The notes beneath the pieces were generated by a model. The model was not told the DNA's origin, made no database searches, and saw nothing but the letters and a program-made list of their open reading frames with translations. A stretch of DNA of 64,000 nt from Actinospineispora acaciae DSM 45401 (GTDB taxonomy: Bacteria; Actinomycetota; Actinomycetes; Mycobacteriales; Pseudonocardiaceae), in the NCBI RefSeq assembly GCF_000620785.1, contig NZ_JIAI01000003.1, positions 124,001 to 188,000 of the forward strand. The letters run 5' to 3'. The position numbers and the translations under genes are program-made. This document shows, one piece after another, positions 34,927 through 64,000 of this stretch. Position 1 is the stretch's first letter. The number at the start of each line of letters is the position of its first letter.

Positions 34927-36009
34927 ATGGGTCGCACACCCACGCGCGTCGGGGTGGTCGGTTACGGGTACTGGGGCTCCAAGCACGTACGCGTGCTGAA
35001 CAGCCTGCCCGACGTCGAGGTCACCGTGATCGACCAAGACGAACAGCGGCTGCGTGAGGCGATGTCGAGCTTCCCGTCGGTCCGCATCGCCACCGACCTG
35101 GCCGACGAGCTGGAGTCGCAGGACGCCGTCGTCGTCGCCACCCCGCCCGGGGTGCACGCGCCGATCGCGCTGCAGGCCCTCAAGGCCGGGCTGCACACGC
35201 TGGTGGAGAAGCCGCTGGCCACCTCGGTCGAGGAGGCCGAGTCGCTGGTGGAGGCCGCGCGCTCCGCCGACGTGCGGCTCATGGTCGGTCACACCTTCGA
35301 GTACAACCCGGCGGTCTGGAAGCTCAAGGAGATCATCGCCTCCGGCGAGCTCGGGCGGGTCCTCTACATCGACGCCGCCCGGCTGAGCCTGGGCCGCTAC
35401 CAGCACGACTGCAACGTGATCTGGGACCTGGCGCCGCACGACATCTCGATCGTGTCCTACCTGCTCGACGAGGTCCCGCAGACCGCGTCGGTGTGGGCGC
35501 AGCGCAACGTGGGCGGCCAGCACGAGGACGTGGCCTACATCCGGCTGGAGTTCGAGCAGTCCGGCGCGCCGGCGTTCGTGCACCTGAGCTGGCTGCACCC
35601 GGAGAAGGTCCGCCGGGTCACCGTGGTCGGCGAGAAGAAGATGGCCATCTACAACGACATGTCCGACAACGAGCGGATCCGCATCTACGACGTCGGCGTG
35701 GACCCGGCCCAGGTGGACGAGGGCGCCTCGCACGGCTTCCCGGTCAGCTACCGGTTCGGCGACATCGTCTCCCCGTTCATCCCGTTCCAGGAGCCGCTGC
35801 TGGTCCAGGACGGCCACTTCGTGGAGTGCGTGCGCACCGGCCGCGAGCCGCAGACCCCGGGCGAGCGCGGGCTGGACATCGTGCGCGTGCTGGCCGCCAC
35901 CGACGTGTCGACCGCCACCGGCGGCCCGGCCACCATCCCGTCCACCCTCGAGGTCGCCGGGAACGGCACCGGCAACGGCTCGGTGCGCCTGAGCGGGGTG
36001 CGCCCGTGA
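34927..36009 (+). CDS. Gfo/Idh/MocA oxidoreductase, WlbA/WbpB-like
   Basis: 360 residues. The Rossmann domain begins VGVVGYGYWGSKHVRVL (nucleotide motif 12-17), has the family EKP motif Glu94-Lys95-Pro96 and, further on, a WDLAPHDIS segment with the conserved catalytic-region His. The C-terminal alpha/beta domain binds the sugar. With the following DegT aminotransferase and the UDP-sugar dehydrogenase at 50456, the best role is oxidation at C3 of a UDP-N-acetylhexosaminuronate, as WlbA/WbpB. GGAGGT sits seven bases before ATG 34927. It is the first gene of the operon, overlapping the next by 4 nt. Confidence 0.87.
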   Translation: MGRTPTRVGVVGYGYWGSKHVRVLNSLPDVEVTVIDQDEQRLREAMSSFPSVRIATDLADELESQDAVVVATPPGVHAPIALQALKAGLHTLVEKPLATSVEEAESLVEAARSADVRLMVGHTFEYNPAVWKLKEIIASGELGRVLYIDAARLSLGRYQHDCNVIWDLAPHDISIVSYLLDEVPQTASVWAQRNVGGQHEDVAYIRLEFEQSGAPAFVHLSWLHPEKVRRVTVVGEKKMAIYNDMSDNERIRIYDVGVDPAQVDEGASHGFPVSYRFGDIVSPFIPFQEPLLVQDGHFVECVRTGREPQTPGERGLDIVRVLAATDVSTATGGPATIPSTLEVAGNGTGNGSVRLSGVRP

Positions 36010-37127
36010 GCGAGAATCTGGAGCCGGTCCCGTTCCTGGACCTGGCCGGGGTGAACGGCGCGCTCCGTGAGGAGTACGAGCGGGCGTTCTCCGGCGTGCT
36101 GGACCACGGCAAGTTCATCGGCGGCCCCGAGGTCGCCGCGTTCGAGGCCGAGTTCGCGGACTACTGCTCCGCGCGCGAGGCCATCGGGGTGGGCAACGGC
36201 ACCGACGCGCTGGAGCTGATCCTGGCCGGGCTGGGCATCGGCCCCGGCGACGAGGTGATCGTCCCGGCCAACACGTTCATCGCCACCGCCGAGGCGGTCT
36301 GCTACGTGGGCGCCCGGCCCCGGTTCGTGGACGTGCTGCCGGACACCCTGCTGCTCGACCCGGACGCGGCCGACGCGGCGGTGAACAAGAACACCGCGGC
36401 GATCATCGGCGTGCACCTGTTCGGCCAGATGGTGGACGTGGACCGGGTCGGCGCGGTGGCCGCCAAGCACGGCGTGGCCTTCGTCGAGGACGCCGCGCAG
36501 GCGCACGGCGCCCGGTTCGCCGGCCAGCGCGCCGGCAGCGTCGGGGTGGCCGCCGGGTTCAGCTTCTACCCCGGCAAGAACCTCGGCGCGCTCGGTGACG
36601 CCGGCGCGGTGGTCACCCAGGACGCCGAGCTGGCCGGCAAGATCCGCCGGCTGGCCGACCACGGCCGCTCCGCCGACAGCCGCTTCCACCACGACCTGCG
36701 CGGGCGCAACAGCCGCATGGACTCGGTGATCGCCGGCGCGCTGTCGGCCAAGCTGCGCGGGCTGGACGCGGCCAACGCCGGCCGGGTGCGGGCCTGGGAG
36801 CAGTACGTGGCCCAGCTGCCCGCCGGCGCCACCCCGGTCGCCCGCCACCCCAAGGCCGAGGCCGTCTACCACCTCGGCGTGGTGCAGGTGGAGAACCGCG
36901 AGCAGGTCTGCAAGACGCTCACCGAGGCCGGCATCGGCTGGGGCCTGCACTACCCGGTGCCCTGCCACCTGGACGCCGCCTACGGCGACTTCAGGGAGTC
37001 GCTGCCGGTGGCCGAGGCCGCGGCCGAGCGCATCCTGTCGCTGCCCATGTCGCCCACCCTGGACTCGGCCCAGGTCGCCAGGGTGTGCAACGTCCTGCGA
37101 GATGCCACCAGGGGTGCACCGGCATGA
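36006..37127 (+). CDS. DegT/DnrJ/EryC1 sugar aminotransferase
   Basis: The 373-residue PLP aminotransferase has Lys191 in SFYPGKNLGALGDAG (Schiff base), Asp162-Gln165 (EDAAQAHGA) and GNGTDALELIL for the phosphate. It most resembles WbpE/WlbC-type enzymes that convert the 3-keto intermediate into UDP-2-acetamido-3-amino uronate with glutamate as donor. GTG 36006 overlaps the oxidoreductase stop (GTGA). No N-acetyltransferase of the WbpD left-handed beta-helix type follows, which would normally complete the diacetamido sugar. Confidence 0.88.
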   Translation: MSENLEPVPFLDLAGVNGALREEYERAFSGVLDHGKFIGGPEVAAFEAEFADYCSAREAIGVGNGTDALELILAGLGIGPGDEVIVPANTFIATAEAVCYVGARPRFVDVLPDTLLLDPDAADAAVNKNTAAIIGVHLFGQMVDVDRVGAVAAKHGVAFVEDAAQAHGARFAGQRAGSVGVAAGFSFYPGKNLGALGDAGAVVTQDAELAGKIRRLADHGRSADSRFHHDLRGRNSRMDSVIAGALSAKLRGLDAANAGRVRAWEQYVAQLPAGATPVARHPKAEAVYHLGVVQVENREQVCKTLTEAGIGWGLHYPVPCHLDAAYGDFRESLPVAEAAAERILSLPMSPTLDSAQVARVCNVLRDATRGAPA

Positions 37128-37981
37128 CACGTCCGTCCGACGCGACGCGGGGGTCGGGGAGCAACAGCACCCCGACCGCCGTTCCCGGCAACCGGCAACC
37201 CCTGCCCGGGCCCCCCGGTGGGCCGCAGGGCGGGTTCCGGCCCGGGCCGCGCTTCGCGCCAGCGCCGCCACCCCGGCGGCGGCTGACGCCCGCGCAGGGG
37301 TCGCGCCTGGGCCTGATCTCGGGCCTGATCGTCGTGCTCGGCGCGGCGGCCGGCCTGGCGGTGACGCTGCTGGTGCCCACGCTCTACGCGGCGCGCACCG
37401 ACATCGAGTACACCGTGTCGAGGGAGAACGCCAGCGAGTTCCTCCGCACCGACCGCAACCTGACCACCCAGACCGTGCTGATCACCAGCCGCACCGTGCT
37501 GGGTCCCGTCGCCGACGCGAACGGCGTCTCCCCCGACGAGCTGACCGGCCGGGTCAGCGCCAAGATCCTGATGGGCAAGGACCAGGTCACCAGCGAGGTC
37601 ATCGAGGTGACCGTGCTGGACCCTGACCGGCAGGCCGGCGTCAAGCTGGCCGACGACGTGGCCAAGCAGTACCTCAAGGTGTTCTCCCAGAACGGGCCGA
37701 AGGCCTACCTGCAGGCCCAGCTCGACGAGGCCCGCCGCCAGCTGGCCTCCGCGCCGGCGGCCACCGCGCCTCAGGTCCAGACCCGGATCAACACGCTGCA
37801 GGGCCAGCTGGACACCGTGAACATCGCCGGCAACCGGGCGGCCATCCTGGTGCCGGCATACTCGGTGTCGGCACCCGCGTACCCGAACCCCATGCTGTTC
37901 GCCGCCACCGGCGCGCTGTGTGGTCTGGTCGTGGCCGCGCTGGTGGCGATCGCACTGTCCCGACGTTGGACGCGGAGTTGA
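37124..37981 (+). CDS. Wzz-like chain-length/export protein, paralog 1
   Basis: 285 residues. A Pro/Gly-rich cytoplasmic N-terminal tail (1-60) precedes transmembrane helix 1 (about 63-85), an extracytoplasmic helical domain with TDRNLTTQTVLITSRTVLG and a coiled region (QLDEARRQLAS), and transmembrane helix 2 near 258-278, ending LSRRWTRS. This is the topology of polysaccharide co-polymerases (Wzz/CapA/YveK) without a fused tyrosine kinase. The ATG overlaps the aminotransferase stop. The next gene is a close paralog. Confidence 0.82.
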   Translation: MTRPSDATRGSGSNSTPTAVPGNRQPLPGPPGGPQGGFRPGPRFAPAPPPRRRLTPAQGSRLGLISGLIVVLGAAAGLAVTLLVPTLYAARTDIEYTVSRENASEFLRTDRNLTTQTVLITSRTVLGPVADANGVSPDELTGRVSAKILMGKDQVTSEVIEVTVLDPDRQAGVKLADDVAKQYLKVFSQNGPKAYLQAQLDEARRQLASAPAATAPQVQTRINTLQGQLDTVNIAGNRAAILVPAYSVSAPAYPNPMLFAATGALCGLVVAALVAIALSRRWTRS

Positions 37982-37988
37982 TGCTCAG

Positions 37989-38990
37989 ATGACGCGCGCC
38001 TCAGACGCCGCCCGCAACACCGGCGACGCCGACCGGCCACCGCGGCCCGGCGGCGGAAGCTCGGGCGGCGGCTCTGGCCCGTCCGGCGGGTCCAACGGCG
38101 GCGAGGGCTCGGGCTCCGGCCAGGGTTCCGCCGCCCCGTCGAGACAGCAGCCCGCACAGCAACCGGCGCAGCAGCCCGCCCCGCCCAGGGGTCGCCAGCC
38201 GCTGCCGGGGCCACCGCCCGGTGCCCGGGTGCCCGGCCCGCCCATGATGGGTGGCGGCCCCCGGTTCGCCCCGCCCCCGCCGCCGCGCCGCCAGCTCAGC
38301 GCCGGCCAGCGCACCAAGCTGGTCGGCATCACCCTGGCGCTGGTCGCGGTGGGCGCCCTGCTGGGCTCGGTCGTCGCGCTGGTGATTCCCACCCAGTACG
38401 CGGCGCAGACCACCATCCAGTACAACATCGCCGGCGAGAACACCGGCGACTTCCTCAAGACCGACCGCAACCTGACCACCCAGGTGGTGCTGGTCACCAG
38501 CCGCAACGTGCTGCAGCCGGTCGCGGACGCGAACGGCATCTCGGTCGACAGCCTGACCAGGCGCGTCACCGCGACCATCCTGAACAGCAGCAACATCATC
38601 CAGGTACAGGTCAAGGACCCGAGCCGGGAGAACGGCATCAACCTGGCCAACGCGATCGCCAAGCAGTACCTCACGGTGGCCAACAGCAGCGGCCCGCAGG
38701 GCTACCTGCAGAACCAGCTGAACGAGGTGCGCCGCCAGCTGGCCGCGCCGAGGCCGGGCACCACCGCCGCCGAGACCCAGGCGCTCAACGCGCGCGCGGT
38801 CACCCTGCAGTCCCAGCTGGACGAGATGAACGTGACCGCCAACCAGTCCACGGTGCTGGCGCCGGCCTACTCGGTGACCGACCCGGTCTCGCCGAACAAG
38901 GGCGTCGCCGGGCTCACCGGCGGGGTGGCGGGCCTGCTCATCGCCCTGATGACAGTCGTGACGCTGAGCCGTCGCTGGACCCGGAGCTGA
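37989..38990 (+). CDS. Wzz-like chain-length/export protein, paralog 2
   Basis: 333 residues with the same plan as its neighbour and many identical blocks: TDRNLTTQ, PVADANG, PAYSV and the terminal LSRRWTRS. The N-terminal tail is longer and repetitive (Ser-Gly runs, then QQPAQQPAQQPAP, then PPPPPRR). Helix 1 is at about 111-133 and helix 2 at about 305-323. The two genes lie 7 nt apart and clearly arose by tandem duplication. They may form a mixed oligomer controlling chain length or coupling polymerisation to export. Confidence 0.82.
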   Translation: MTRASDAARNTGDADRPPRPGGGSSGGGSGPSGGSNGGEGSGSGQGSAAPSRQQPAQQPAQQPAPPRGRQPLPGPPPGARVPGPPMMGGGPRFAPPPPPRRQLSAGQRTKLVGITLALVAVGALLGSVVALVIPTQYAAQTTIQYNIAGENTGDFLKTDRNLTTQVVLVTSRNVLQPVADANGISVDSLTRRVTATILNSSNIIQVQVKDPSRENGINLANAIAKQYLTVANSSGPQGYLQNQLNEVRRQLAAPRPGTTAAETQALNARAVTLQSQLDEMNVTANQSTVLAPAYSVTDPVSPNKGVAGLTGGVAGLLIALMTVVTLSRRWTRS

Positions 38991-38992: not shown

Positions 38993-39841
38993 ATGCCCAC
39001 CACCGTCGACCCGCACGGCCCCCGGATGTCCTGGCGGATGCCCCGGGTGCTGATGTACCACAACTTCGGCCACCCGCCGGCCAGCGGCGACCCGGAGCAC
39101 CTGTTCGTCCCGGTTGACGTCTTCCGCGCGCACCTGGAGCTGCTGCGCGACGGCGGCTGGCAGGCGCTGTCCCTCGACCAGTTCATGGCCGTGCTGGACG
39201 GCGCCCCGGCGCCGCGCAAGTCCTACCTGGTCACGATCGACGACGGGCACGAGTCCGTGCTCAGCACCGCCGCTCCCATCCTGGCCGAGTACGGCGTCCC
39301 CTCGGTGCTGTTCGTGCCGCCAGGCGTGCTCGGCGGCCCGGTGACCTGGAACCCGGCGTACGCGTCGGAGAAGCTCTCCAGCAAGGCCGAGATCGCCACC
39401 CTGGCCGGCACCGGCATGGAGGTCGGCGTGCACGGCTACGACCACATCCGGATGCTCGACCTGGACGCCCCGACGCTGCACCGCAACGTGGTGGCCGCGC
39501 GCGACGAGGTCACCGAGATGATGGGCTACACGCCCCGCTCGTTCGCCTACCCGTACGGCAGCCACGACGCGGACGCCCGCGCCACGCTGGCCGCCACCGG
39601 CTACGCGGTCAGCTTCGCGGTGGCCAGGGAGCGCGGCCGGTTCGCGGTGGACCGGATCTACGTCAAGGGCACCGACTCGCTGGGCATGTTCCGGTTCAAG
39701 CTCTCCATGGCCTACCGGTTCGCCTCCAGGGTGGGCGGGCGCACGCCGTGGCTGCGGCACAAGGTCAGGGCACTGGTACAGCTGGTCAAGGGAGGCCAGC
39801 GGCGGGACTCTCCCGATCAGGCGGGTCATCGGGGTGGATAG
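38993..39841 (+). CDS. Polysaccharide deacetylase (NodB-like)
   Basis: 282 residues. The carbohydrate esterase 4 fold has Asp83-Asp84 in TIDDGHES (base and metal ligand), metal histidines His147 and His151 (GVHGYDHIRM), and RSFAYPYGSHDA near 180-190. There is no signal peptide, so it probably acts in the cytoplasm on a lipid-linked or nucleotide sugar, or is exported by another route. Removing N-acetyl groups would create free amines on the polymer. It is 2 nt downstream of the second Wzz-like gene. Confidence 0.85.
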   Translation: MPTTVDPHGPRMSWRMPRVLMYHNFGHPPASGDPEHLFVPVDVFRAHLELLRDGGWQALSLDQFMAVLDGAPAPRKSYLVTIDDGHESVLSTAAPILAEYGVPSVLFVPPGVLGGPVTWNPAYASEKLSSKAEIATLAGTGMEVGVHGYDHIRMLDLDAPTLHRNVVAARDEVTEMMGYTPRSFAYPYGSHDADARATLAATGYAVSFAVARERGRFAVDRIYVKGTDSLGMFRFKLSMAYRFASRVGGRTPWLRHKVRALVQLVKGGQRRDSPDQAGHRGG

Positions 39842-39882: not shown

Positions 39883-41637
39883 GTGAGTCGCGGGCACCCA
39901 CCGAAACCTGGTTCAGACGCGTTCACACAAGGGGCAGCGAAGCGTGAAGGTACGTCCCGATCCGATCTCGATCCGCTCGTCGCGGCGGATCCGGGGCTGA
40001 TCGCGATGGCCGAACCCACCACCGTCCCGATGAACATGAACCCACACGCCTCGGACGACTCCGCCCGCGAGGCCACCGCCCGCAACTCCGTCACCGTCGT
40101 CGTCTGGACCCTGCTGAGCAGGGTGGCCGGGCTGGCCCGGGTCCTGATCATCGGCGCCCTGATGGGCCCGACCTTCTTCGCCAACATCTTCCAGGCCGGC
40201 TACGTCCTGCCGAACACCATCCACTCCACGCTGGCCGGCCCGATCCTGGCCATGGTGCTGATCCCGTCGATCGTGCGGGCACTGGACGGCGCCGGAGCCA
40301 CCCGCGCCAAGGAGCTGCTCAGCAAGGTCGCCGGCCGCATCCTGGGCCTGGCGGCCCTGGGCGCCGGCGGGCTCATGGTGCTCTCCCCCGCGGTGGCCTG
40401 GTCGTTCGTCGCCGGCTTCCCGGAGCCGATCCGGCAGCGGGCCTGGGTGCTCACCATCATCCTGATCCTGTTCGTGGCGCCCCAGATCGTGCTCTACGGG
40501 GTGTGTGCGTTCGGGGTGGCCGCGCAGCAGTCCCGGGGGCGGTTCGCGCTGCCCGCCGCGGCGCCGGCGATCGAGAACGTCGGCTCCATCGTCACCGTCC
40601 TGCTGGCCTCGTGGATCTACGGCACCGGGCTGGAGGTGGACCAGGCGCCGTTCGGCATGATGATCATGCTCGGGATCGGCACCACGCTCGCCGTGGTGCT
40701 GCAGGCCGTGCTGCAGATGTACGGCACCTACCGGTGCGGGCTGCTCACCCTGCCCCGGCGGGGCTGGAAGCGCGACCCCGAGTCGGCCGACGCGATCCGC
40801 CGGGTGCTGCGCTCGGTGCCGGTCGCGGCGTGCCCCTCGGTCACGAACTACACGCTGACCGCCATCTCCTCCACCGCGCCCGGCGGCGTGCTGGTGGTGC
40901 AGCTGTCGTACCAGGTCTACTACGCGCTGTCCTTCCTCGGCACCCGCGCGGTCTCCATGGCCGCGCTGCCCCGCCTCGCCCAGGCCGCCAGCTCGACGAA
41001 CCTGCGCCGGTTCGGCGTGGCCTGGCGGCAGGGGCTGTTCTTCGCGGTGATCGCCGGGATGCCGCAGCTGTGCCTGCTCGCCGCGTTCGCCGCGCCGACC
41101 GCCGACCTGCTGGCCAACGGCGAGCTGCGGGAGGCCAACCTGATCAACGACCTGGCCGGCTGCCTCGCGGTGGCGGCGTTCGCCCAGATGGCCGGCGGCA
41201 TCCACGACTTCGGCCGGCAGGCGCTGTTCTCCCGGATGGACGACAGGGGCCCGCTGATCGCCAGCTTCGTCGGGCTGTTCGTCGGCATCGCCATCGCGTT
41301 CAGCACGCTGGCCCTGCCTCCCGACGGCTCCCGGCTGGCCGGGCTGGTGGTGTGCGTGCTGGCCGGCGAGACGGCCTCCTCGATCACCGTGCTGACCAGG
41401 CTGCGGCGGGCGATCCGACCCGAGGCGTTCATCCTTCGCGGGCACATGCTCGCAATCGGGCTGGCCACGGTGGCAATGTTCCCGGTGATCGCGGCGGGGT
41501 GGTGGCTGTTGTGGCTGCTGCACCCGGAGCGACTGGTGGAACTGGGTCTCCTGCTGGCGTGCGGGGCCGTCTCGCTCGGCGCGTTCCTGCTGGTGGTCCG
41601 GTACATCGGCATGAAGCTAACGGCGGAGCAGGCATGA
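39883..41637 (+). CDS. MurJ/Wzx-type lipid-linked glycan flippase, paralog 1
   Basis: About 584 residues from GTG 39883 or 543 from ATG 40006. After a hydrophilic N-terminal tail there are 13-14 membrane helices of the MviN/MurJ MOP superfamily, beginning NSVTVVVWTLLSRVAGLARVLIIGALMGPTFFAN. In this setting, just before a polymerase gene, it most likely moves the undecaprenyl-linked repeat unit across the membrane rather than lipid II. GGAAGGAG ten bases before GTG 39883 supports the longer form. A paralog is at 57303. Confidence 0.83.
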   Translation: MSRGHPPKPGSDAFTQGAAKREGTSRSDLDPLVAADPGLIAMAEPTTVPMNMNPHASDDSAREATARNSVTVVVWTLLSRVAGLARVLIIGALMGPTFFANIFQAGYVLPNTIHSTLAGPILAMVLIPSIVRALDGAGATRAKELLSKVAGRILGLAALGAGGLMVLSPAVAWSFVAGFPEPIRQRAWVLTIILILFVAPQIVLYGVCAFGVAAQQSRGRFALPAAAPAIENVGSIVTVLLASWIYGTGLEVDQAPFGMMIMLGIGTTLAVVLQAVLQMYGTYRCGLLTLPRRGWKRDPESADAIRRVLRSVPVAACPSVTNYTLTAISSTAPGGVLVVQLSYQVYYALSFLGTRAVSMAALPRLAQAASSTNLRRFGVAWRQGLFFAVIAGMPQLCLLAAFAAPTADLLANGELREANLINDLAGCLAVAAFAQMAGGIHDFGRQALFSRMDDRGPLIASFVGLFVGIAIAFSTLALPPDGSRLAGLVVCVLAGETASSITVLTRLRRAIRPEAFILRGHMLAIGLATVAMFPVIAAGWWLLWLLHPERLVELGLLLACGAVSLGAFLLVVRYIGMKLTAEQA

Positions 41638-43094
41638 CTCAGACGCACCCACCACCGTCCGCTGCGCACCCGGTGCGCATCGAGGCCAAGGACCCGACCA
41701 AGGGCACCGGCTGGATCGTCGGGCTGGCCGTGCTGTGCTCGGCGGTCGCCGGGGCGCTGGGCGCCGCGATCGGCCAGGCGGCCGCCTACGGCTTCGTGGG
41801 CGGGCTGTTCGGCATCATGCTGGTCGCCGCCGCCGCCCGGTACCCGCTGTTCGCCACCTACGCCTATCTGTGCACCATGCCGATCCTGGCCGGCATGGAC
41901 CGGGACAAGCTGATCCCGCTGGTCCGGCCCAACGAGGCGCTGCTGGTCATCGTGATGGCCGGCGCGGTGATCGGGGCGTACCTGCGGATGCTGCGCGGCG
42001 ACGACGTCCGGCCCCGGTTCCTGCCGGCGGTGGACATCCCGCTGGCGGTCTTCCTGCTGTTCGGCACCATCTGGCCGCTGGCCTCGCTGACCCTGCGCGG
42101 CCAGATCCCGACCGGGACGGAGTGGGCCGGCACGCTGATCATCACCAAGCTGGTCGGGATCTACTTCCTGGTCCGCTACACGGTGAGGACCGAGCAGGAC
42201 ATCGTCAGGGCCATCCGGTTCATCGTCTGGCCCGGTGCCGTGGTCGGGCTCATCGCGGTGTTGCAGACGCTGAAGTTCCCGCCGGTGATCGCGCTGCTGA
42301 ACACCTTCTGGGCGTCGGCGGAGAACGCCGGTGAGATCGCCGAGCTGGGCTCTCGCGGCAGCGCCACCCTGGGCTCCCCGATCGCGGCCGGCGACGTCAT
42401 CATCATCTCCCTCATCCTGGTCCTCTGCTGCGGCGCCAGGGGCATCCTGGGCCGCCAGGAGCGGCTGATCCTGGCGCTGTGCCTGGGCAGCGGGGTGTTC
42501 GCCGCCGGCCAGTTCTCCACCTGGATCGCGGCGCTGGTCGGCTTCGCGCTGATCGCCTGGCGGTTCCCGGAGATGCGCCGGCAGGCCAAGCGGTTCGCCC
42601 CGCTCGGCGTGGTCGCGTTGATCATCGGCGCGCCGGCCTTCATCAACCGGCTGGAGGGCATCGGCGAGTACGGGGTGCCCGTCCCGGAGAGCTGGATGGG
42701 CCGCTACGACAACCTGGTGTACCTGTACATGCCGCACTTCGATTGGGTGACGATCCTCATGGGGGTGTCACCCAACACGGTGCTGCACGCCCCCGAACGC
42801 TGGCGCGAGGTCATCTACCTGGAGTCCGGCATCCTCTGGTTCATCTGGATCGGGGGCCTGCCACTGCTGCTGGCGTTCCTGTGGCTGTCCTTGAGGGTGT
42901 TACGCACAGTGCGCCCCGCCATCCGCCATCCGGGTGCCTTCGGTGCGTGCGCGTCAAGTCTGGAAATCGTTTGGCTGTTCTTGCTCGTTCTTACTCTCAT
43001 TGACCCACATCTTCAGCTCCGTGGCACCGGAGACCTGATCTTCACGTTGCTGGCGATCACCGTTGGAGGGATCGATGCCCGACGTCGGACTTGA
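41634..43094 (+). CDS. Wzy/O-antigen-ligase-like polymerase
   Basis: 486 residues and about eleven membrane helices, with one large extracytoplasmic loop near residues 340-400 (GEYGVPVPESWMGRYDNLVYLYMPHFDW), the layout of Wzy polymerases and WaaL ligases. Sequence motifs are weak, as usual for this family, so the call rests on topology and on its place between the flippase and the initiating transferase. Start and stop overlap the neighbours (4 nt and 20 nt), a sign of tight co-translation. Confidence 0.75.
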   Translation: MTQTHPPPSAAHPVRIEAKDPTKGTGWIVGLAVLCSAVAGALGAAIGQAAAYGFVGGLFGIMLVAAAARYPLFATYAYLCTMPILAGMDRDKLIPLVRPNEALLVIVMAGAVIGAYLRMLRGDDVRPRFLPAVDIPLAVFLLFGTIWPLASLTLRGQIPTGTEWAGTLIITKLVGIYFLVRYTVRTEQDIVRAIRFIVWPGAVVGLIAVLQTLKFPPVIALLNTFWASAENAGEIAELGSRGSATLGSPIAAGDVIIISLILVLCCGARGILGRQERLILALCLGSGVFAAGQFSTWIAALVGFALIAWRFPEMRRQAKRFAPLGVVALIIGAPAFINRLEGIGEYGVPVPESWMGRYDNLVYLYMPHFDWVTILMGVSPNTVLHAPERWREVIYLESGILWFIWIGGLPLLLAFLWLSLRVLRTVRPAIRHPGAFGACASSLEIVWLFLLVLTLIDPHLQLRGTGDLIFTLLAITVGGIDARRRT

Positions 43095-43737
43095 CTCTGC
43101 ACTGCCTCAGGCAGCGACTTGGGAGTCAGTTGCGCGCCGAGCGGTGGATCTGTTGGTCTCGGGTCTCGCGCTGGCCGTGCTGGCCATACCGATGATCATC
43201 ATCGGCCTGACGATCAAGTGGACCAGCGTCGGGCCGGCGCTGTTCCAGCAGCAGCGGGTAGGCCTGGGCGGCCGCACGTTCACCATGTACAAGTTCCGCA
43301 CCATGCGCACCGGTGTGGGTGACGAGATGCTCCGCGAGCTGATCGCCGCCGAGCTGCGCGGCGAGGACACCTCGTCGAACGGCAGCTACAAGCTCGACGC
43401 CGACCCCCGGGTCACCCCGATCGGGGAGTTCCTGCGCAAGACCAGCATGGACGAGCTGCCGCAGCTGATCAACGTGCTGTTCGGCGACATGTCCCTGGTC
43501 GGCCCGCGCCCGTGCCTGGAGTGGGAGGCGCGGATGTTCCCGGCCGAGTTCCAGGCCCGGTTCGCGGTGCGCCCCGGCCTGACCGGCCTGTGGCAGGTCT
43601 CCGGCCGCTCCACCATGGGTACCCTGGAGATGCTTCACCTGGACCTGGCGTACGTTCGGACCCGCAACCTGGTAGGCGACCTCTCCATCCTGGTCCGGAC
43701 CATCCCTTCGATGCTGCGGGAGAGCGGCGCTCGATGA
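43075..43737 (+). CDS. Initiating phosphoglycosyl transferase (WbaP/ExoY type)
   Basis: 220 residues of the monotopic sugar transferase family. A re-entrant membrane helix (about 25-47) is followed by the catalytic domain with KFRTM (73-77), the Asp126-Glu127 dyad in [19 protein letters not shown] and [13 protein letters not shown]. It transfers a sugar phosphate from a UDP-sugar to undecaprenyl phosphate, starting the repeat unit. There is no long N-terminal membrane domain, so it is the short form. GGAGGG precedes ATG 43075, which overlaps the polymerase gene by 20 nt. Confidence 0.93.
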
Positions 43738-44877: not shown

Positions 44878-44884
44878 CTTGGGT

Positions 44885-57181: not shown

Positions 57182-57289
57182 TGACCCTCCCAACCGCGCT
57201 TCGGGTCATTCGTTCATAGCACCGCGCCCGGGGGTCGTGAAAGATCCGAAAGAGCCTATGCCGCGCTCCGCCGGGGGGTCGGCGGGCGA

Positions 57290-57295
57290 TAGCGT
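57290..57295 (+). promoter_or_regulatory. -10 box TAGCGT for the second flippase gene
   Basis: TAGCGT ends seven bases before ATG 57303, in the 121-nt gap between divergent genes. No ribosome-binding site. Confidence 0.45.
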
Positions 57296-57302
57296 GTCCG
57301 GA

Positions 57303-58931
57303 ATGGAACGCGGCCCGGCGACCGAGCCCGAGCCGCCGAGCACGGCGCGCGGTTCGGCCACGGTCGCGGTGTGGACGCTGGTCAGCAGGGTCACCGGGCT
57401 GCTGCGGGTGGTGGCCATCGGCGCGGTGCTGGGGCCGACGTTCTTCGCCAACGCGTTCCTGTCCGCGAACACGGTGCCGAACCTGACGTACACCGCTCTG
57501 GCCGGCCCGATCCTGGCGCTGGTGCTGGTGCCCGCGCTGGTCCGGTCGCTGGCCGAGCGCGGCGTCGCGGCGTCCGGGGAGCTGCTCGGACGGGTCAGCG
57601 GGTACCTGCTGTTCTGGTCGGGGGTGGCGGCGGCCGGGCTGGTGCTGGCCTCGCCGCTGGTGGCGCTGGCGGTGACGGCGGGCATCCCGGACGCGGACAC
57701 CCGCTGGCGGGCGTGGCGGCTGACCGTCCTGGTGCTGGTGTTCGTGGCGCCGCAGGTGCTCTGCTACACGCTGGCCGCGATCGGGGCGGCGGTGCAGCAG
57801 GCCAGGGGGCGCTTCGCGCTGGCCGCCGCGGCGCCCGCTCTGGAGAACCTGGGGCTGGTCGCGACCGTGGGCCTGGTGGCGCTGTGGTTCCGGCCCGGGG
57901 TGGACGTGGCGAACGCGTCGCTGACCATGGTGTTCGTGCTCGGGGTGGGCGCCACGGCGTCGGTGGCCACGCATGCGGTGGCGCAGTTGGTCGGCGCCTG
58001 GCAGGTCGGGATGCCGGTGCTGCCGCGCCGCGGCTGGCGGGCGGACGAGGCCACCCGGGAGGTCACCGGGCGGTTGCGCCGCTCGGTGGTCGTGGCGGCG
58101 TTCCCGTCCGTGTCCATGTTCGGGATGCTGGCGGTGGCGGCCACCGTGCCCGGCGGGGTGTTCGTGTTCCAGGCCGCCATGTCGGTGTACTTCGTGATCG
58201 CCGCGCTGGGCGCCAAGGCGGTGACGGTCGCGGCGCTGCCGGGGATGAGCGCCGCTGCGGACGGGCAGGACGCCGAGAGGTTCGGCACCGCGTGGCGGCA
58301 GGCGTTGAGCTACTCGGTGATCGCCAGCCTGCCCGCGCTGTGCCTGCTGTGGGCCTACGCCGAACCGGTGGCCGCCACGCTGGCCAACGGCAGGCTGCAC
58401 GACCCCTCGATCGTGCGCTGGCTGACCGCCTGCCTGGTCGTGTTCGCCATCGCGCAGTTCGCCGACGCGGTCAACGAGGTGGCCCGCCAGGCCCTGTTCG
58501 CGCGCCTGGACGTGACCGGGCCGCGCTACGTCAGCACCGTGACGCTGGCGGTGCGGCTGGCGGTCGCGCTGGGCGCGCTGGCGCTGCCGGCCGGCGGGGA
58601 TCGGCTGATCGGGCTGAGCTGCGCGGTGCTGCTGGCCGACCTGGTCGCCGCGGCCCTCGCGCTGGCCATGGTGCGCGCGGCGATCCGCCCGCAGCCGCTG
58701 CTCGACCCGCGCCGGCTGACCGCCGTGCTCGCGGCCGCCGTGGCCATGGTCCCGGCGGCGGTGCTCGGCGCCTGGGCGGTGGAGCGGCTGCACCACCGGG
58801 TGCCGCAGCTGGTCGCGGGGGTCGCGCTGGGCGCCACCGCACTGGCCTGCTTCGGGTTCGCGCTGGCGCTGTTCACCGGGCAGCTGCCGACGGTGATCGC
58901 CAAGGTGCGGGCTCGCGTGTCCGGCTCTTAG
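57303..58931 (+). CDS. MurJ/Wzx-type flippase, paralog 2
   Basis: 542 residues with the same MOP-superfamily layout as the protein at 39883-41637; the openings run in parallel (ATVAVWTLVSRVTGLLRVVAIGAVLGPTFFANAF here). About 13-14 membrane helices, a short hydrophilic N-terminus and a basic C-terminal end. It should translocate an undecaprenyl-linked glycan or related lipid. Two such genes in one cluster suggest either two repeat units or one lipid-linked donor for later modification. Its stop overlaps the convergent FemAB-like gene by 4 nt. Confidence 0.85.
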   Translation: MERGPATEPEPPSTARGSATVAVWTLVSRVTGLLRVVAIGAVLGPTFFANAFLSANTVPNLTYTALAGPILALVLVPALVRSLAERGVAASGELLGRVSGYLLFWSGVAAAGLVLASPLVALAVTAGIPDADTRWRAWRLTVLVLVFVAPQVLCYTLAAIGAAVQQARGRFALAAAAPALENLGLVATVGLVALWFRPGVDVANASLTMVFVLGVGATASVATHAVAQLVGAWQVGMPVLPRRGWRADEATREVTGRLRRSVVVAAFPSVSMFGMLAVAATVPGGVFVFQAAMSVYFVIAALGAKAVTVAALPGMSAAADGQDAERFGTAWRQALSYSVIASLPALCLLWAYAEPVAATLANGRLHDPSIVRWLTACLVVFAIAQFADAVNEVARQALFARLDVTGPRYVSTVTLAVRLAVALGALALPAGGDRLIGLSCAVLLADLVAAALALAMVRAAIRPQPLLDPRRLTAVLAAAVAMVPAAVLGAWAVERLHHRVPQLVAGVALGATALACFGFALALFTGQLPTVIAKVRARVSGS

Positions 58932-60088
58932 TACCGGGGCAGCCCGCCCCGGCGCATCCAGCCGCGGGCCCGGTCCACCAGGAACCGTCCCGCCGACGCC
59001 GAGTCCAGTGCGTCGTAGCCGGCGCGCAGCAGCGTGGACGAGATCAGCTCGACCGCGCGCGGGTACGCATGCAGCCGGCCGCCGAAGGCGACCTTGAACA
59101 GCTCCGGCCCGGTCAGCGAGGACGTGCTGAAGCCCTCCGCCCGCACCACCGAGGCGGCGTCCTCCGACAGCCCGCCCACGTCGAACTCGCGCAGGCCGGC
59201 GCGCTTGGCCCAGCGGATGGCCTCCCAGTCCAGCGCCGAGGTCACGCTCAGCCGCACCGCCGGGCTGGAGCGGTCCAGGCCGGTGAACCGGCTGCGCAGC
59301 ACCCCGCCGCAGGCGGTGAACAGCTCGGCGGCGACCGGCTCGCCGTCCACCTCGCCGACGAAGATCTCCGCGTGCCCGCCGCCGGCGAGCCGGTGGTAGA
59401 GGTTGCGCACGTAGCGTCCGGACAGCTCGGGGAAGCCCTGGTGCGCGGCGGTGCGGCCGATCAGCCCGATGAGCAGGTCCACGTCACGGGCGGTGCCCCG
59501 GCGCACCGCGACCCCGCAGCGCTCCCACTTGCCGGTCCAGCGGCGGATCCGCCTGCTCATGCCGGCGCGCAGCTCGTCCTCGTCGACGGACAGGTCGATG
59601 CGCACCGTGGTGGCCGGCGCCACCCCGGCCGTGGAGCACCGGAACCCGCGCGCCAGCAACGCGCGGCTGACGTCGTCCCCACCGTCCGCCGGCTGGACGA
59701 ACAGCGCGCGCAACCGGTGTCTGGCCAGCCGAGACAGCGCGTCGGCGAGCGCCGTCACCACGGCCGGGCGAGGGGCGCCGGCGGCCACCAGCGGACCGTA
59801 GGCGACGTAACCGACCGTGCCGATCACCGGCAGCCGGCGCATCAGCACCTGCGCCCCGCCGACCAACCGTCCGTCCCGCCAGGCGAACACGTACAGCGGC
59901 CGGTAGCCGACGCTGCCGCGCACCCCGGCCCAGCCGCTGAGCTGGGTGACATCGCTGCCCGGCAGGTCGGAGACGAGCCCGTCCCACGTCGACAGCGTGG
60001 CGACACCGGGCTGCGCGGACACGGTCGTGGAGATCGGCTCGGTCTTCACTCGCAACCGGTCGTCCACCTGCCCTAACTCCAACCGCAC
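58928..60088 (-). CDS. FemAB-like GNAT-fold aminoacyltransferase, paralog 3
   Basis: 386 residues, parallel to the protein at 46482: QLSGWAGVRGSVGYRPLYVFA, YVAYGPLVAAG, SRRIRRWTGKWERCGVAVRRGTARDVDLL, PVAAELFTACGGVLRSRFTGLDR, FDVGGLSEDAA and FKVAFGGRLHAYPRAVEL, all in the same order. GTG 60088 has minus-strand TAGTGT six bases upstream. It may attach an amino acid to the polymer or to a lipid-linked unit. It is convergent with the flippase gene and starts 19 nt after the dehydrogenase stop. Confidence 0.84.
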   Translation of the reverse strand: MRLELGQVDDRLRVKTEPISTTVSAQPGVATLSTWDGLVSDLPGSDVTQLSGWAGVRGSVGYRPLYVFAWRDGRLVGGAQVLMRRLPVIGTVGYVAYGPLVAAGAPRPAVVTALADALSRLARHRLRALFVQPADGGDDVSRALLARGFRCSTAGVAPATTVRIDLSVDEDELRAGMSRRIRRWTGKWERCGVAVRRGTARDVDLLIGLIGRTAAHQGFPELSGRYVRNLYHRLAGGGHAEIFVGEVDGEPVAAELFTACGGVLRSRFTGLDRSSPAVRLSVTSALDWEAIRWAKRAGLREFDVGGLSEDAASVVRAEGFSTSSLTGPELFKVAFGGRLHAYPRAVELISSTLLRAGYDALDSASAGRFLVDRARGWMRRGGLPRY

Positions 60089-60106: not shown

Positions 60107-61171
60107 TCATAACAGTTTCGAGATGACCGCCGCGGCGAACTCGGCCGTGCCGAGCGCACCGTCCCCCGATCGGTGCGGCGTCAGGTCGTAGGTGTGCCTG
60201 CCGTCCGCGAGCGCCGCGGCCACGGCGTCCTCCACCCGGCGCGCGGCCTCGTCCTCACCGAGGCGACGCAGCGCCAGCGCGCCGGACAGGATGGTGGCCA
60301 CCGGGTTGGCCCGGTTGCGGCCGGCGTGGCGGGGCGCGCTGCCGTGCGCGGGCTCGAACAGCGACACGCACGAGCCGTGGTTCACCCCGGGGACCATGCC
60401 GATGCCGCCGACCAGGGCACCGCCGAGGTCGGCCATGATGTCGCCGTACTGGCCGGGCAGCACCAGCACGTCCAGCTCCTCCGGCCGCTGCACCAGGTGT
60501 GCGGCCAGCGCGTCCACCGCGATGGTGTCGAACTCCAGGTGGGTGCGGGCGGTCACCACGGCGCGGCCGGTCGCCACGAACAGCCCGTCGGTGGCCGGCA
60601 GCACGGTGGCCTTGTGCACGGCGGTCAGCCTGCGGCGGCCGTGGTGCTCGGCGTAGTCGGCGGCGAACTCGAACGCCCGCCTCGCCCCGGCCGCCGAGGC
60701 GACCTTGACCGCCAGCGCCGCCCCTGCCGGCACCGGCATGCCCCTCGCGCGCAGCCAGTCGGCCAGCTCCTCGGCGCTGTCCTCGGCAAGCTCGATGCCG
60801 GCGTAGACGTCCTCGGTCGTCTCCCTGATGATGATCAGGTCCACGTGCCGCCCCGGAACGCCGGGCAGGGTCCGCACGTGGCGGGCGTTGGCGTACAGGT
60901 CCAGCTCGCGGCGCAGCGCGATGTTGACCGAGGGCATGCTGCCGTCCGCCGGGGTGGTGAACGGCCCCTTCAGCGCCACCCCGCGGTCCGCGATGGCCTC
61001 GACGACGTGCCGGGGCAACGGCTCCTTCGCGCCGGCGGCCAGGGCGGTCAGGCCAGCCTGGTGGACCTCCCAGTCGAGGTCCGCGCCGGAGGCGTCCAGC
61101 ACGGCGCGGGCCGCCGCGGTGACCTCCGGCCCGATCCCGTCGCCCGGCAGCAGGATGATCCGGTGACTCAT
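60107..61171 (-). CDS. Isocitrate/isopropylmalate-family dehydrogenase
   Basis: 354 residues. It opens RIILLPGDGIGPEVTAAA, has the substrate motif SVNIALRRELDLYANARHV (closest to NAD-isocitrate dehydrogenases, Ser/Asn plus Arg), IRETTEDVYAGIE, and the Mg-binding aspartates in QYGDIMADLGGALVGG followed by the NAD-site FEPAHGSAP. It oxidatively decarboxylates a 2-hydroxy acid; whether isocitrate, isopropylmalate, homoisocitrate, tartrate or another is not clear. Its start overlaps the ATP-grasp stop by 4 nt, which suggests it makes the acid or precursor joined by that ligase. Confidence 0.88.
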   Translation of the reverse strand: MSHRIILLPGDGIGPEVTAAARAVLDASGADLDWEVHQAGLTALAAGAKEPLPRHVVEAIADRGVALKGPFTTPADGSMPSVNIALRRELDLYANARHVRTLPGVPGRHVDLIIIRETTEDVYAGIELAEDSAEELADWLRARGMPVPAGAALAVKVASAAGARRAFEFAADYAEHHGRRRLTAVHKATVLPATDGLFVATGRAVVTARTHLEFDTIAVDALAAHLVQRPEELDVLVLPGQYGDIMADLGGALVGGIGMVPGVNHGSCVSLFEPAHGSAPRHAGRNRANPVATILSGALALRRLGEDEAARRVEDAVAAALADGRHTYDLTPHRSGDGALGTAEFAAAVISKLL

Positions 61172-62340
61172 CCGATCGCGCGGACCCGGCCGGTGACCGC
61201 CCTGGACACCCGGCCGGCGGCCCGCGCCAGCGCCGGCCCCGGGTCGCTCAGCCGCAGGTAGGGCAGGATCTGGCGGCCATGCGCGACGCTGCGCAGCCAG
61301 TCCGCGACGGTCAGCTCGCCGGTGCGGCGCAGCGCGAGCAGGGCGCGGACGTCGTTCGTCGGGTGCCACAGCCGCAGCCCCTCGCGGTACGTCCTCGGCC
61401 AGCGCACCGGCTCGCCAAGGATCCGCCGGTAGACCAGCCGCGCCAGGTCGATGCCCGCCGCCGCGACCAGCGCGTTCGACGCCACGAACCGCGCGTTGCA
61501 CTCCATCAGCCTGAGCGTGCCGTCCCGCGGGTCGCGCTTGAACTCCACGTTGGCCAGCCCGCGCACCCCGGCCGCCCTGACCATCCGCAGCCCGACGTCG
61601 CGGACCTCCGGGTTCACGTCGGTGACGTGGTAGCAGCCGAATCCCTGCCGGGGCGGGAACCGACGGATGATCCGCTTGGTGAAATGGAACGCCGGCTCGC
61701 CGTCCTCCGCGATGTAGGTGAAGTAGCTGCACAGCAGCGAGTCCGGGCCCTCGATGGTCTCCACCAGCATGCACTCGATGCCGGCCTCGCCCATCGCCCG
61801 GTACTGGGCCACCAGCTCCCCGCCGTCGCGCGCGGTCCTGAACTTGCCGGGGAACCGCGCCTGGTACTCGTGCGAGCGCAGCGGCTTGAGCAGCAGCGGG
61901 TAGGCGAACTCGTCGCGGCGGGCGAGCAGCTCGTCCGCGCCGCCGACCATCCAGTACCTCGGGGTCGGCACGTCCGCCTTGGTCGCGATCTCGTACGTGG
62001 CGTGCTTGTCGAGCATGTCCAACTGGGCGGCCGGGTCGGAGATGTCCAGCTCGAACCGCTCGGCCAGCCGCTCGCGGTTGCGGGCGACCAGCGTCAGCGC
62101 GACGTCGTCGCAGGCCAACAGCACGGCACCGGCCAACCGGGCGCCGGGCGCGCCGAGCAGCCAGTCGGTACGGACCCGCTCGTCGTTCTCCCCCGGTAGG
62201 AACACCGTCCGGAACGCCCGCGAGTGGCGCAGCTCGCGCCCGGTGCCCAGCCCGTACACCCGCACCCCGAGCGCGGCCAGCCGACGCCCCACCGACAGCG
62301 TCTGCGGGTTCCCGCCCACCAATAGCGCCGGCGGCCTCAT
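61168..62340 (-). CDS. ATP-grasp ligase, paralog 2
   Basis: 390 residues. The N-terminal part is ALLVGGNPQTLSVGRRLAALGVRVYGLG, then comes an ATP-grasp core with LDKHATYEIATKADVPTPRYWMV, YPLLLKPLRSHEY, CMLVETIEGPDSLLCSY, HFTKRIIRRFPPRQGFG, and ANVEFKRDPRDGTLRLMECNARF with the metal-binding Glu and Asn. It shares these blocks with the protein at 51721. ATG 62340 overlaps the stop of a 56-codon gene and its stop overlaps the dehydrogenase start (both ATGA), so three products are co-translated. Confidence 0.87.
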   Translation of the reverse strand: MRPPALLVGGNPQTLSVGRRLAALGVRVYGLGTGRELRHSRAFRTVFLPGENDERVRTDWLLGAPGARLAGAVLLACDDVALTLVARNRERLAERFELDISDPAAQLDMLDKHATYEIATKADVPTPRYWMVGGADELLARRDEFAYPLLLKPLRSHEYQARFPGKFRTARDGGELVAQYRAMGEAGIECMLVETIEGPDSLLCSYFTYIAEDGEPAFHFTKRIIRRFPPRQGFGCYHVTDVNPEVRDVGLRMVRAAGVRGLANVEFKRDPRDGTLRLMECNARFVASNALVAAAGIDLARLVYRRILGEPVRWPRTYREGLRLWHPTNDVRALLALRRTGELTVADWLRSVAHGRQILPYLRLSDPGPALARAAGRVSRAVTGRVRAIG

Positions 62341-62572: not shown

Positions 62573-63493
62573 GTGCCGCGCATCATCCAGCGACTCGAGC
62601 CGCGCCACCGCGCGGTCTGGGGCCGGCACACCGTCAAGCTCCGCCACGGCCTCACCGAGCTGGACCTGTTCTCCGACGAGGTGCTGGCCGCGCTGCTCGA
62701 TACGTACGACGAGAAGCGCCTGATCATGCACACCATGGCCGACGACGTATCGACCTGGAAGTCGGTGGCCAGGGGCGGGGTGTCCGGGCGGCGCATCCTG
62801 GACGCGGTCCGCTCCGGCCGGGTGTGGATCAACATGACGGACGTGCAGGACGCCGACCCCCGATTCCGCGAGCTGCTGGACGCCATCTACGCCGAGTGGG
62901 CGCGGGAGGTTCCCGGGTTCAACGCCTTCAAGCGCAAGATCGGACTGCTGGTCTCCTCGCCGAACGCCCGCGTGTTCTACCACTGCGACCCCGCCGGCCA
63001 GGCGCTCTGGCAGGTCCGGGGCCGCAAGCGGATCTACCTCTACCCGCCGGCGCCGCCGTTCCTGCAGCCCGCCGAGCTGGAGAACGTGATCCGCAGCGTC
63101 ACCGCCGAGGAGCTCAGCTACCAGCCCTGGTACGACGACCACGCCGAGGTGTACGACCTCGAACCCGGCCAGATGCTGCACTGGGCGCTCAACTGCCCGC
63201 ACCGCATCGACAACCATGACGAGATCAACGTCTCGCTGACCAGCGAACACTTCACCCCGGAGATCCTCCGCCGGTGGGCCGTGAACTACGGCAACGGGGT
63301 GCTGCGCTCGCTGGGATACACGCCACGCTCGCGCTCGGTGCACGGCGCGGCATTCTGGACGAAGGTCGCCGTCACGACGCTGTGGCGCGCGACCGTCCAG
63401 GAGAGGCAGAGTTACAAGCGCGTCCCGGAGTTCGTTCCCGATCCGGACGCCCCCAACGGGGTGCGCCCGATCGCCGCCGCGGGCGTGAGCTGA
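62573..63493 (+). CDS. JmjC/cupin-like protein, paralog 1
   Basis: 306 residues. An N-terminal helical region (residues 1-125) precedes a cupin core with His137-x-Asp139 (VFYHCDPAG), followed by LWQVRGRKRIYLYPP and a distal His210 in LHWALNCPHRIDN. This is the facial triad seen in JmjC/cupin_8-type iron and 2-oxoglutarate hydroxylases. No Gly/Trp clamp can be judged from sequence alone. Substrates could be a protein, peptide or amino acid of the neighbouring pathway. It is divergent from the ATP-grasp operon, and the next gene is a paralog. Confidence 0.8.
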   Translation: MPRIIQRLEPRHRAVWGRHTVKLRHGLTELDLFSDEVLAALLDTYDEKRLIMHTMADDVSTWKSVARGGVSGRRILDAVRSGRVWINMTDVQDADPRFRELLDAIYAEWAREVPGFNAFKRKIGLLVSSPNARVFYHCDPAGQALWQVRGRKRIYLYPPAPPFLQPAELENVIRSVTAEELSYQPWYDDHAEVYDLEPGQMLHWALNCPHRIDNHDEINVSLTSEHFTPEILRRWAVNYGNGVLRSLGYTPRSRSVHGAAFWTKVAVTTLWRATVQERQSYKRVPEFVPDPDAPNGVRPIAAAGVS

Positions 63494-63574
63494 GGGATTT
63501 TCAGTATGGGTGCCCGGTCGTGACCGGGCAGGGGGAGAGTCGCCCGCATCGGGTGACTCACGAAGGGGCCTGTC

Positions 63575-64000
63575 GTGTTATCAGTTATCGACCCACTCGA
63601 CGCGCACCAGCGCGAGCTGTGGGGCCACCAGACCGTCAAGCTGCGCCACCACCTGGCGGAGATGGACCTGTTCTCCGACGACTCGCTGGCCAAGCTGATC
63701 GAGACCGCCGCGCCGAAGAGCCTGGCCATGCACACCGAGGGCGGCACCGACCCGTCCACCTGGCCGTCCGTGGCGCGCGGCACCGTGCCCGGCGCCGGCG
63801 TCCTTGAGGCGGTGCGCGACGGCAAGCTGTGGATCAACCTGGTCGGCATCAGCGAGTGGGACCCGCGCTTCGCCGAGCTGGCCGACAAGATCTTCGCCGA
63901 GTTCGCCGCCCAGGTGCCCGGCCTGGACGTGGTCAAGCGCAAGCTCGGCGTGCTGATCTCCTCGCCGAAGGCCACCGTGCATTACCACATCGACATCCCC
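63575..64000 (+). CDS. JmjC/cupin-like protein, paralog 2 (3' end outside window)
   Basis: The frame is open for 142 codons to the last base of the window, so the gene is cut. It parallels the previous gene residue for residue in places: TVKLRHHLAEMDLFSDDSLAKLI, STWPSVARGTV, LWINLVGISEWDPRF and, at the edge, HYHID with His138-x-Asp140 of the metal site. AAGGGG is six bases before GTG 63575. The 81-nt gap after paralog 1 suggests the same transcript. The distal His and C-terminus lie beyond the edge. Confidence 0.8.
   Translation, partial: MLSVIDPLDAHQRELWGHQTVKLRHHLAEMDLFSDDSLAKLIETAAPKSLAMHTEGGTDPSTWPSVARGTVPGAGVLEAVRDGKLWINLVGISEWDPRFAELADKIFAEFAAQVPGLDVVKRKLGVLISSPKATVHYHIDIP

Follow-up and report, generated by a model that had tools for sequence, protein, structure and literature searches.

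The DNA analysed here (the window) is a stretch of 64,000 nucleotides at positions 124001-188000 of contig NZ_JIAI01000003.1, within the 9.93 Mb draft genome of Actinospineispora acaciae DSM 45401. Its 29 kb region 34927-64000 was found to carry polysaccharide genes that include an amino-sugar pathway with no detectable WbpD-type acetyltransferase, and a FemABX-like N-acyltransferase, Fem2 (49315-50418, plus strand), that may stand in for it. We propose, with a probability of roughly one half, that the locus makes a Wzx/Wzy-type surface polysaccharide in which Fem2 N-acylates the 3-amine of a sugar in place of WbpD, the likely acyl group being an amino acid donated by aminoacyl-tRNA. The evidence is computational and lies in the gene set and its conservation, the failure to detect WbpD, the fusion of Fem2 to a glycosyltransferase in one genus, and its relationship to FemABX proteins. 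The genes named in a preliminary description of the region (a dehydrogenase, an oxidoreductase, an aminotransferase, three FemAB-like proteins and two ATP-grasp proteins) are all present and belong to the right families according to profile searches. The region is, however, more than one pathway, being composed of a conserved core and accessory modules.

Conservation was assessed in samples of 62 genomes of the genus and 297 of the family (46 genera), with the genome itself included in both. Fem2 orthologues (E ≤ 1e-20) were found in 19 of the 62 and in 35 of the 297, the latter from six genera. The main tally was a six-frame search of 40 further Fem2 neighbourhoods (L091-L130), used because a simple gene caller undercounts; additional Fem2 loci in genomes G108, G178, G243, G275 and G273, and locus L053 of Pseudonocardia eucalypti (G013), lie outside these 40. 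The core was found whole or in part in all 40 neighbourhoods, across the Pseudonocardiaceae, with the order Gfo/Idh-DegT-(Wzz)-(polysaccharide deacetylase)-MurJ-Wzy-initiating transferase-GT28-Fem2-UDP-sugar dehydrogenase. Close to Fem2 were an initiating transferase in 38 loci, a DegT aminotransferase in 37, a Gfo/Idh protein in 36 and GT28 in 34, followed by Wzz-like (30), Wzy-like (30) and MurJ-type (29) proteins and, within approximately 10 kb, an orthologous dehydrogenase (22). The remaining families were seen less often, with further FemAB proteins of the Fem1/Fem3 type in 13 loci, a deacetylase in nine, a beta-helix protein in eight, and an ATP-grasp protein (two by gene calling) and a cupin in one each; no locus had a relative of the isocitrate/isopropylmalate/tartrate-dehydrogenase family (IDH-like) protein. 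The three neighbourhoods without DegT (L096, L109 and L116) are on short contigs or lie close to a contig end; so do those without a Gfo/Idh protein, among them L092, in which the gene is cut by a contig end. The comparison of co-occurrence that the preliminary description had called for indicates that an amino-sugar pathway with a FemAB protein where WbpD would be expected has been conserved and is no chance feature of a single genome.

The constant part of the sugar pathway is a pair of enzymes for a 3-amino group. The first is a Gfo/Idh/MocA NAD-dependent sugar 3-dehydrogenase, WlbA/WbpB- or GnnA-like (34927-36009, plus strand; PF01408, E 6.5e-26), with UDP-GlcNAc 3-dehydrogenase as its best NCBIfam match (NF040723, 196 bits against a cut-off of 450). 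It gave 46 matches in the PDB, with 3c1a at the top, and its near-equal scores to 3q2k (E 8.5e-18, 67.8 bits) and 7bvj (E 2e-17, 66.6 bits), which we take to be WlbA and GnnA, fit UDP-GlcNAcA and UDP-GlcNAc about equally well as substrate. The second, a DegT/WbpE-like sugar aminotransferase (36006-37127, plus strand; E 4e-106), has a start overlapping the Gfo/Idh stop, and matched WbpE (3nyu) at 3e-82, with 2oga and QdtB (3frk) scoring slightly higher. Directly 3' of Fem2 is a UDP-N-acetylhexosamine 6-dehydrogenase of the WbpA/WecC group (50456-51724, plus strand), for which the NCBIfam models of UDP-ManNAc and UDP-GlcNAc dehydrogenases outscored those of UDP-glucose dehydrogenases, all below their cut-offs. 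The trio of the WbpABDEI pathway (UDP-HexNAc dehydrogenase, Gfo/Idh oxidase and DegT) is thus complete in the window, and in at most 22 of the 40 relatives. For the 18 neighbourhoods with no orthologous dehydrogenase, the genomes of 17 were checked (L092 being at a contig end): five have one elsewhere, at 64-72% identity, five have distant relatives only and seven have none at E ≤ 1e-40. All seven carry some PF03721 dehydrogenase, so that UDP-uronic acid stays possible in each. The earlier claim of a UDP-3-amino-uronic acid therefore stands for the 3-amino pair, which accompanies Fem2 constantly, and is less certain for the uronate across the family as a whole, as only 22 loci have the dehydrogenase; in this species an amino-uronate product is plausible. 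No WbpI-type 2-epimerase was found at the locus; the single PF02350 gene of the genome is on contig C12, apparently in another polysaccharide locus, and could serve in trans.

The reported lack of a WbpD-type N-acetyltransferase was borne out by profile searches and by searches with a WbpD-like query, in both the window and the draft genome. A hexapeptide profile built from the genome's own proteins, which detected a true WbpD-like protein (L156) at E 5.5e-14 as positive control, was used to search 43 stretches (the 40 relatives, L053, L075 and window positions 28001-64000) as 7,134 six-frame segments. No hexapeptide acyltransferase was found in window positions 28001-64000 and no WbpD in any of the 43 stretches, where the profile matched just GlmU (L113) and an L001-like protein in L101 and L102, located approximately 9 kb from Fem2 and judged WcaF-like by eye. 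With L156 as direct query, the two L001-like proteins were again the sole matches in these stretches (2e-4 and 5e-4), with none in the window. A WbpD homologue elsewhere in the genome and dedicated to this pathway would have spoken against the preliminary description, and the draft assembly (93 contigs, completeness 98.1, contamination 7.3, values which qualify any genome-wide negative) yielded no match to a WbpD-like query at E ≤ 1e-8. Its 15 PF00132 matches, read as about nine genes, included none of WbpD type, and by reading were gamma-carbonic-anhydrase-like, WcaF-like, GDP-mannose pyrophosphorylase-like, GlmU, nonribosomal peptide synthetase-associated and, in one case, QdtC-like (L006). 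L006 was rejected as a dedicated acetyltransferase, though not firmly: it has matches in none of the 61 other genus genomes, its neighbour is a family-25 glycosyltransferase, and no amino-sugar synthesis genes were recognised around it.

When the WbpD of G016 was used as query, it matched 29 of the 62 genus genomes at E ≤ 1e-8, a number that fell to 27 at E ≤ 1e-20; at the stricter threshold only three of the 19 Fem2 genomes were included (Fisher p 0.005, with related genomes treated as independent). In G016, itself a Fem2 genome, the WbpD-like gene is grouped with DegT, Gfo/Idh and dehydrogenase genes in a cluster of their own, 26 kb from the Fem2 locus (L167 6488-10488; G016:C1:5126488-5130488), and the Gfo/Idh protein adjoining that WbpD-like gene scored 66.2 bits to 3q2k and 76.0 bits to 7bvj.

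All three FemAB proteins of the region exceed the FemAB profile cut-off, with both PF02388 and PF13480 above threshold in each, and they are of two kinds, namely Fem2 in the core and the Fem1/Fem3 group. A profile of 15 Fem2 sequences (the window's and 14 relatives from the 40 loci) matched six distinct solved sequences at E ≤ 0.001, all six being FemX or aminoacyl-tRNA-dependent peptide synthases, and a profile of nine FemAB proteins matched nine, all of them FemX, FemA or aminoacyl-tRNA-dependent synthases. Sba18 and Sbb17 (so named in the fold search, with a streptothrisamine ligand) were among these matches, and one aminoacyl-tRNA-using solved relative of Fem2 acts on an amino sugar. A lysine in an [FY]K motif is invariant in all 15 aligned Fem2 sequences, is present in all nine aligned FemAB paralogues and aligns with the FK of S. 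aureus FemX; its match to Lys305 of Weissella FemX is by spacing, as the Weissella alignment ends about six residues short. These relationships suggest that Fem2 probably takes the place of WbpD by N-acylating an amino sugar, that its donor is more likely to be aminoacyl-tRNA than acyl-CoA and, by homology, that the group transferred would be an amino acid.

The partner of Fem2 appears to be a GT28-C glycosyltransferase (43734-44720, plus strand), for which the nearest models, all below their cut-offs, are the WelK glucuronosyltransferase and PssD/PssE. GT28 and Fem2 are fused in a single open frame in six loci, all with genus label g25 (three other g25 loci are unfused), and both of the two fused proteins scanned with Pfam had Glyco_tran_28_C and Acetyltransf_6. 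Of 34 loci having both genes, 22 have them fused or on the same strand within 60 bases, and in seven more they are adjacent on opposite strands. The Wzx/Wzy features in the window are of unequal clarity. The initiating polyprenyl-phosphate sugar transferase (43144-43737, plus strand; PF02397, E 2e-58; TIGR03025 below cut-off) and MurJ1, a MurJ-superfamily flippase and presumed exporter of the lipid-linked unit (40006-41637, plus strand; PF03023, E 3e-37), are clear. The two Wzz/CpsC-like chain-length proteins are weak (37334-37981, plus strand, TIGR01006 at E 5e-4, syntenic in relatives; 38244-38990, plus strand, TIGR01006 at E 2.4e-9, below cut-off), and the putative Wzy/O-antigen polymerase (41634-43094, plus strand) has no family match, having been placed by position and by sequence by eye.

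From these data we infer an acceptor, a donor and an order of steps. The Gfo/Idh and DegT enzymes would install a 3-amino group on a UDP-N-acetylamino sugar, and this sugar, or a partner sugar, could be oxidised to a uronic acid by the dehydrogenase beside Fem2. Polyprenyl phosphate would receive its first sugar from the initiating transferase and the next from the PssDE/WelK-like GT28, with Fem2, working with GT28, N-acylating the free 3-amine; WbpD would then be unnecessary. The 3-amine is preferred as acceptor because the presence of Fem2 goes with that of the aminotransferase and glycosyltransferase, not with that of the deacetylase (DegT in 37 loci against deacetylase in nine), and because WbpD was not found. 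By analogy with FemX and with Orf11 of the BD-12 pathway, the acyl group would be an amino acid from aminoacyl-tRNA, added to the nucleotide sugar (as Weissella FemX acts on a UDP precursor; PMC4964394, in the text available) or to the lipid-linked unit. The MurJ-family flippase would export the unit, the Wzy-like protein polymerise it and the Wzz-like proteins set chain length. More broadly, and only tentatively, these loci may define a family of actinobacterial Wzy glycans in which a uronosyltransferase-coupled FemX-type transferase loads a tRNA-derived amino acid on a 3-amine, with ATP-grasp enzymes perhaps lengthening or capping the addition in Pseudonocardia clades. The preliminary suggestion of a polymer whose sugar amine is linked to amino acids is thereby upheld as regards a conserved WbpD-less locus with a FemAB protein; the amino acid itself is suggested by homology, and the ATP-grasp enzymes fall outside the core.

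Several observations weigh against this proposal. Fem2 scores higher with PF13480, a family named acetyltransferase (60.0 bits), than with PF02388 (31.6 bits), and of four other Fem2 orthologues scanned, PF02388 was below cut-off in three and unlisted in one. The structure model of Fem2 is poor, with a mean predicted local distance difference test score (pLDDT) of 51.8, and its fold matches were for that reason given little weight. Three Fem2 genomes do have a WbpD, at distances from Fem2 of 26 kb (G016), 629 kb (G056) and 1.76 Mb (G025), and two more (G005 and G054) have weak partial matches of 1e-9 to 1e-10. GT28 is near Fem2 in only 34 of the 40 loci and the orthologous dehydrogenase in 22, and in the window itself GT28 and Fem2 are 4.6 kb apart with three genes between them.

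The part of the region beyond the core was found to consist of clade-specific accessory modules, whose ATP-grasp, IDH-like and cupin genes are nearly absent from other core loci. ATP-grasp 1 (51721-52944, minus strand) is followed by module 2, which comprises a second MurJ-superfamily flippase, MurJ2 (57207-58931, plus strand), Fem3 (58928-60067, minus strand), the IDH-like protein (60107-61171, minus strand; profiles), ATP-grasp 2 (61168-62319, minus strand; profile), which overlaps the IDH-like gene, a Cupin_8 protein (62573-63493, plus strand; PF13621, E 6e-7) and a second cupin-like protein (63575-64000, plus strand; PF13621 below cut-off) that leaves the window and is complete in L020 (1575-2513). 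Relatives of ATP-grasp 2 and Fem3 occur together with a MurJ in L055 and L056, and L055 adds IDH, cupins, an Ldh_2 dehydrogenase and an RraA-like aldolase. Fem1 (46563-47792, plus strand) lies within the core but belongs with Fem3. The module products may act on the polymer of the core locus, on a different one or on a cell-wall precursor. The last of these, in which Fem1, Fem3, the ATP-grasps and MurJ2 tailor and flip a lipid II-like precursor unrelated to the polysaccharide, is unlikely but the best placed of the alternatives: the nearest solved relative of Fem3 is the lipid II:glycine transferase FemX of S. aureus (6snr, E 8.5e-12), and MurJ is the lipid II flippase family. It is opposed by the MurJ-type genes inside 29 of the 40 polysaccharide loci (Wzx-type flippases were not searched for) and by the Fem1/Fem3-group genes near 13 of them, and no cell-wall genes were recognised in the modules. 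The earlier placing of all three FemAB proteins in the pathway holds for Fem2, with Fem1/Fem3 relatives near just those 13 loci.

A slightly less probable alternative, and again an unlikely one, is that Fem2 does replace WbpD but moves a plain acyl group (acetyl, formyl or hydroxybutyryl) from acyl-CoA, making an ordinary diacetamido sugar polymer with a non-homologous acetyltransferase. The stronger PF13480 match is in its favour, as is the placement of the FemX-like HfsK of Caulobacter by its authors, in the text available, in a family of N-acetyltransferases, with holdfast polysaccharide as its target (PMC5362036). Against it, neither sequence profile matched a solved CoA-dependent GNAT at E ≤ 0.001. 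When the poor Fem2 model was used in a fold search, the first eleven matches were FemX, FemA and Sba18/Sbb17 and the next were aminoacyl-phosphatidylglycerol synthases, with CoA-dependent GNATs ranked only after these tRNA-dependent enzymes. In addition, the alignment of 15 Fem2 sequences showed no conserved site with R/QxxGxG/A, the acyl-CoA loop motif.

It is improbable that the whole 29 kb forms one pathway, with the FemAB proteins beginning a short glycan-linked peptide and the two ATP-grasp proteins lengthening it. Repeated groupings of Fem with ATP-grasp genes, many of which include a MurJ-type gene, are indeed seen (L021 on contig C2, module 2 of the window, L052, L054, L055 and L056), and the confident model of ATP-grasp 1 (pLDDT 86.9) is most like an L-amino acid ligase; biotin carboxylases are its next-best structural matches, and close. 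The ATP-grasp fold and the conserved Lys, Glu and Asn positions, presumed to be catalytic, are present. The inclusion of the ATP-grasps in the amino-sugar pathway was not supported for most other species, however, since one was found in a single core locus by six-frame search (two by gene calling), and in P. eucalypti the module of ATP-grasp 2, MurJ, IDH-like protein and Fem3 (L055) is on a different contig from the core (L053). A single operon or pathway spanning the region was rejected on the neighbourhood comparison together with the six-frame tally. More improbable still, although a NodB-type deacetylase resembling PgaB, IcaB and HfsH (below their cut-offs) lies inside the window's operon (38993-39841, plus strand), is that Fem2 acts on an amine freed by this enzyme, as suggested for HfsH/HfsK in holdfast, and as a general source of the amine it was rejected, the deacetylase being near Fem2 in nine loci compared with 37 for the aminotransferase.

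The proposed Fem2 pathway resembles several known systems in part. The dehydrogenase, Gfo/Idh and DegT set is shared with WbpA-WbpB-WbpE-WbpD-WbpI of P. aeruginosa, which makes UDP-ManNAc3NAcA, and, as far as the available text describes it, with the Utr teichuronic-acid cluster of Streptomyces griseus (PMC13274773), likewise for an actinomycete surface glycan. It differs from both in that no WbpD/UtrJ-type acetyltransferase was found nearby, in the lack of a linked WbpI/UtrH-type epimerase and in the presence of a FemX-like protein instead, and from Utr in having Wzy-type assembly genes, which are unmentioned in the available text on that cluster. Fem2 is like FemABX proteins (Weissella FemX, S. 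aureus FemX/FemA) in profile similarity and in the lysine aligned with S. aureus FemX, and unlike them in its low identity, its glycosyltransferase fusion and its position among amino-sugar and polysaccharide genes. Its best NCBIfam match is TIGR03019, the FemAB family of XrtA/PEP-CTERM polysaccharide loci, at 57 bits and far under the cut-off of 260. Orf11 of BD-12, described in the accessible parts of two reports as transferring glycine from Gly-tRNA onto an amino-sugar amine (PMC12945691, PMC10156733), would be a direct precedent for the proposed Fem2 chemistry, although it serves a small antibiotic and Fem2 a polymer locus. HfsK is also a FemX-like protein in an exopolysaccharide system having a deacetylase, but in the accessible text its role is indirect and regulated by cyclic di-GMP, and linked amino-sugar synthesis is not described (PMC5362036).

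Amino acids on 3-amino sugars or uronic acids of surface polysaccharides are known chemically, with 3-(N-acetylalanyl)amino sugars and an alanine amide of an aminogalacturonate among the examples in the available text (PMC3210612). If the proposal is true, Fem2 would offer both a genetic entry point and a mechanism for attaching amino acids to polysaccharide amines, tRNA-dependent aminoacylation would extend from peptidoglycan and small antibiotics to exopolysaccharide, and exopolysaccharide synthesis would be tied to the pool of charged tRNA. Among the papers listed from the open-licence literature, a conserved WbpD-less locus with Fem2 was not found (the GT28-Fem2 fusion was not searched by name), nor was anything found for FemAB with ATP-grasp and polysaccharide, for ATP-grasp with MurJ and FemAB, or for PEP-CTERM with FemAB and exosortase.

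The surroundings of ATP-grasp relatives were compared in 40 stretches around the stronger matches only. The nearest named relatives were from Pseudonocardia, with P. eucalypti the best. ATP-grasp 1 adjoins a MoxR-like gene in L051 and L053, with one gene between them in the window, and a relative of 30% identity adjoins MoxR in L075. For 23 ATP-grasps of other genomes with at least 45% identity to a reference, a reference-set FemAB was within 6 kb in five cases, MurJ in six and a deacetylase in 12; the corresponding numbers for 22 with lower identity were one, none and four. Relatives of ATP-grasp 2 are found with RraA-like, Ldh_2 or DUF1932 dehydrogenase genes (L055 8100-9974, L057 5425-9408, L058 8962-9732; three scanned with Pfam, the rest judged by eye), a hint that an unusual organic acid is made. 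In other Pseudonocardia a second ATP-grasp-like protein is found beside ATP-grasp 2 relatives (L057 7472-8089, L062 10876-11961, L065 5688-6272), with no Pfam match in the two scanned and with motifs that we take to be cyanophycin synthetase-like. The genome itself has three further operon-like sets of FemAB and/or ATP-grasp with MurJ (L021 9016-13076 on C2, L022 6570-11074 and L026 8324-10980), the arrangements being Fem-ATP-grasp-MurJ on contig C2, ATP-grasp-ATP-grasp-MurJ on C7 and Fem-MurJ on C19.

A right-handed beta-helix protein is encoded in the window at 48122-49198 on the minus strand. The core is interrupted between GT28 and Fem1 by an open reading frame at 44789-46411, which we presume to be DUF222/HNH-like; it was missed by the codon-usage gene caller and has no Pfam match, and a frame with a similar start is found elsewhere on the same contig (L027 17417-18586). 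In another polysaccharide locus of the genome, initiating sugar transferase and Polysacc_synt_2 domains are joined in one open reading frame (L134 4539-6947).

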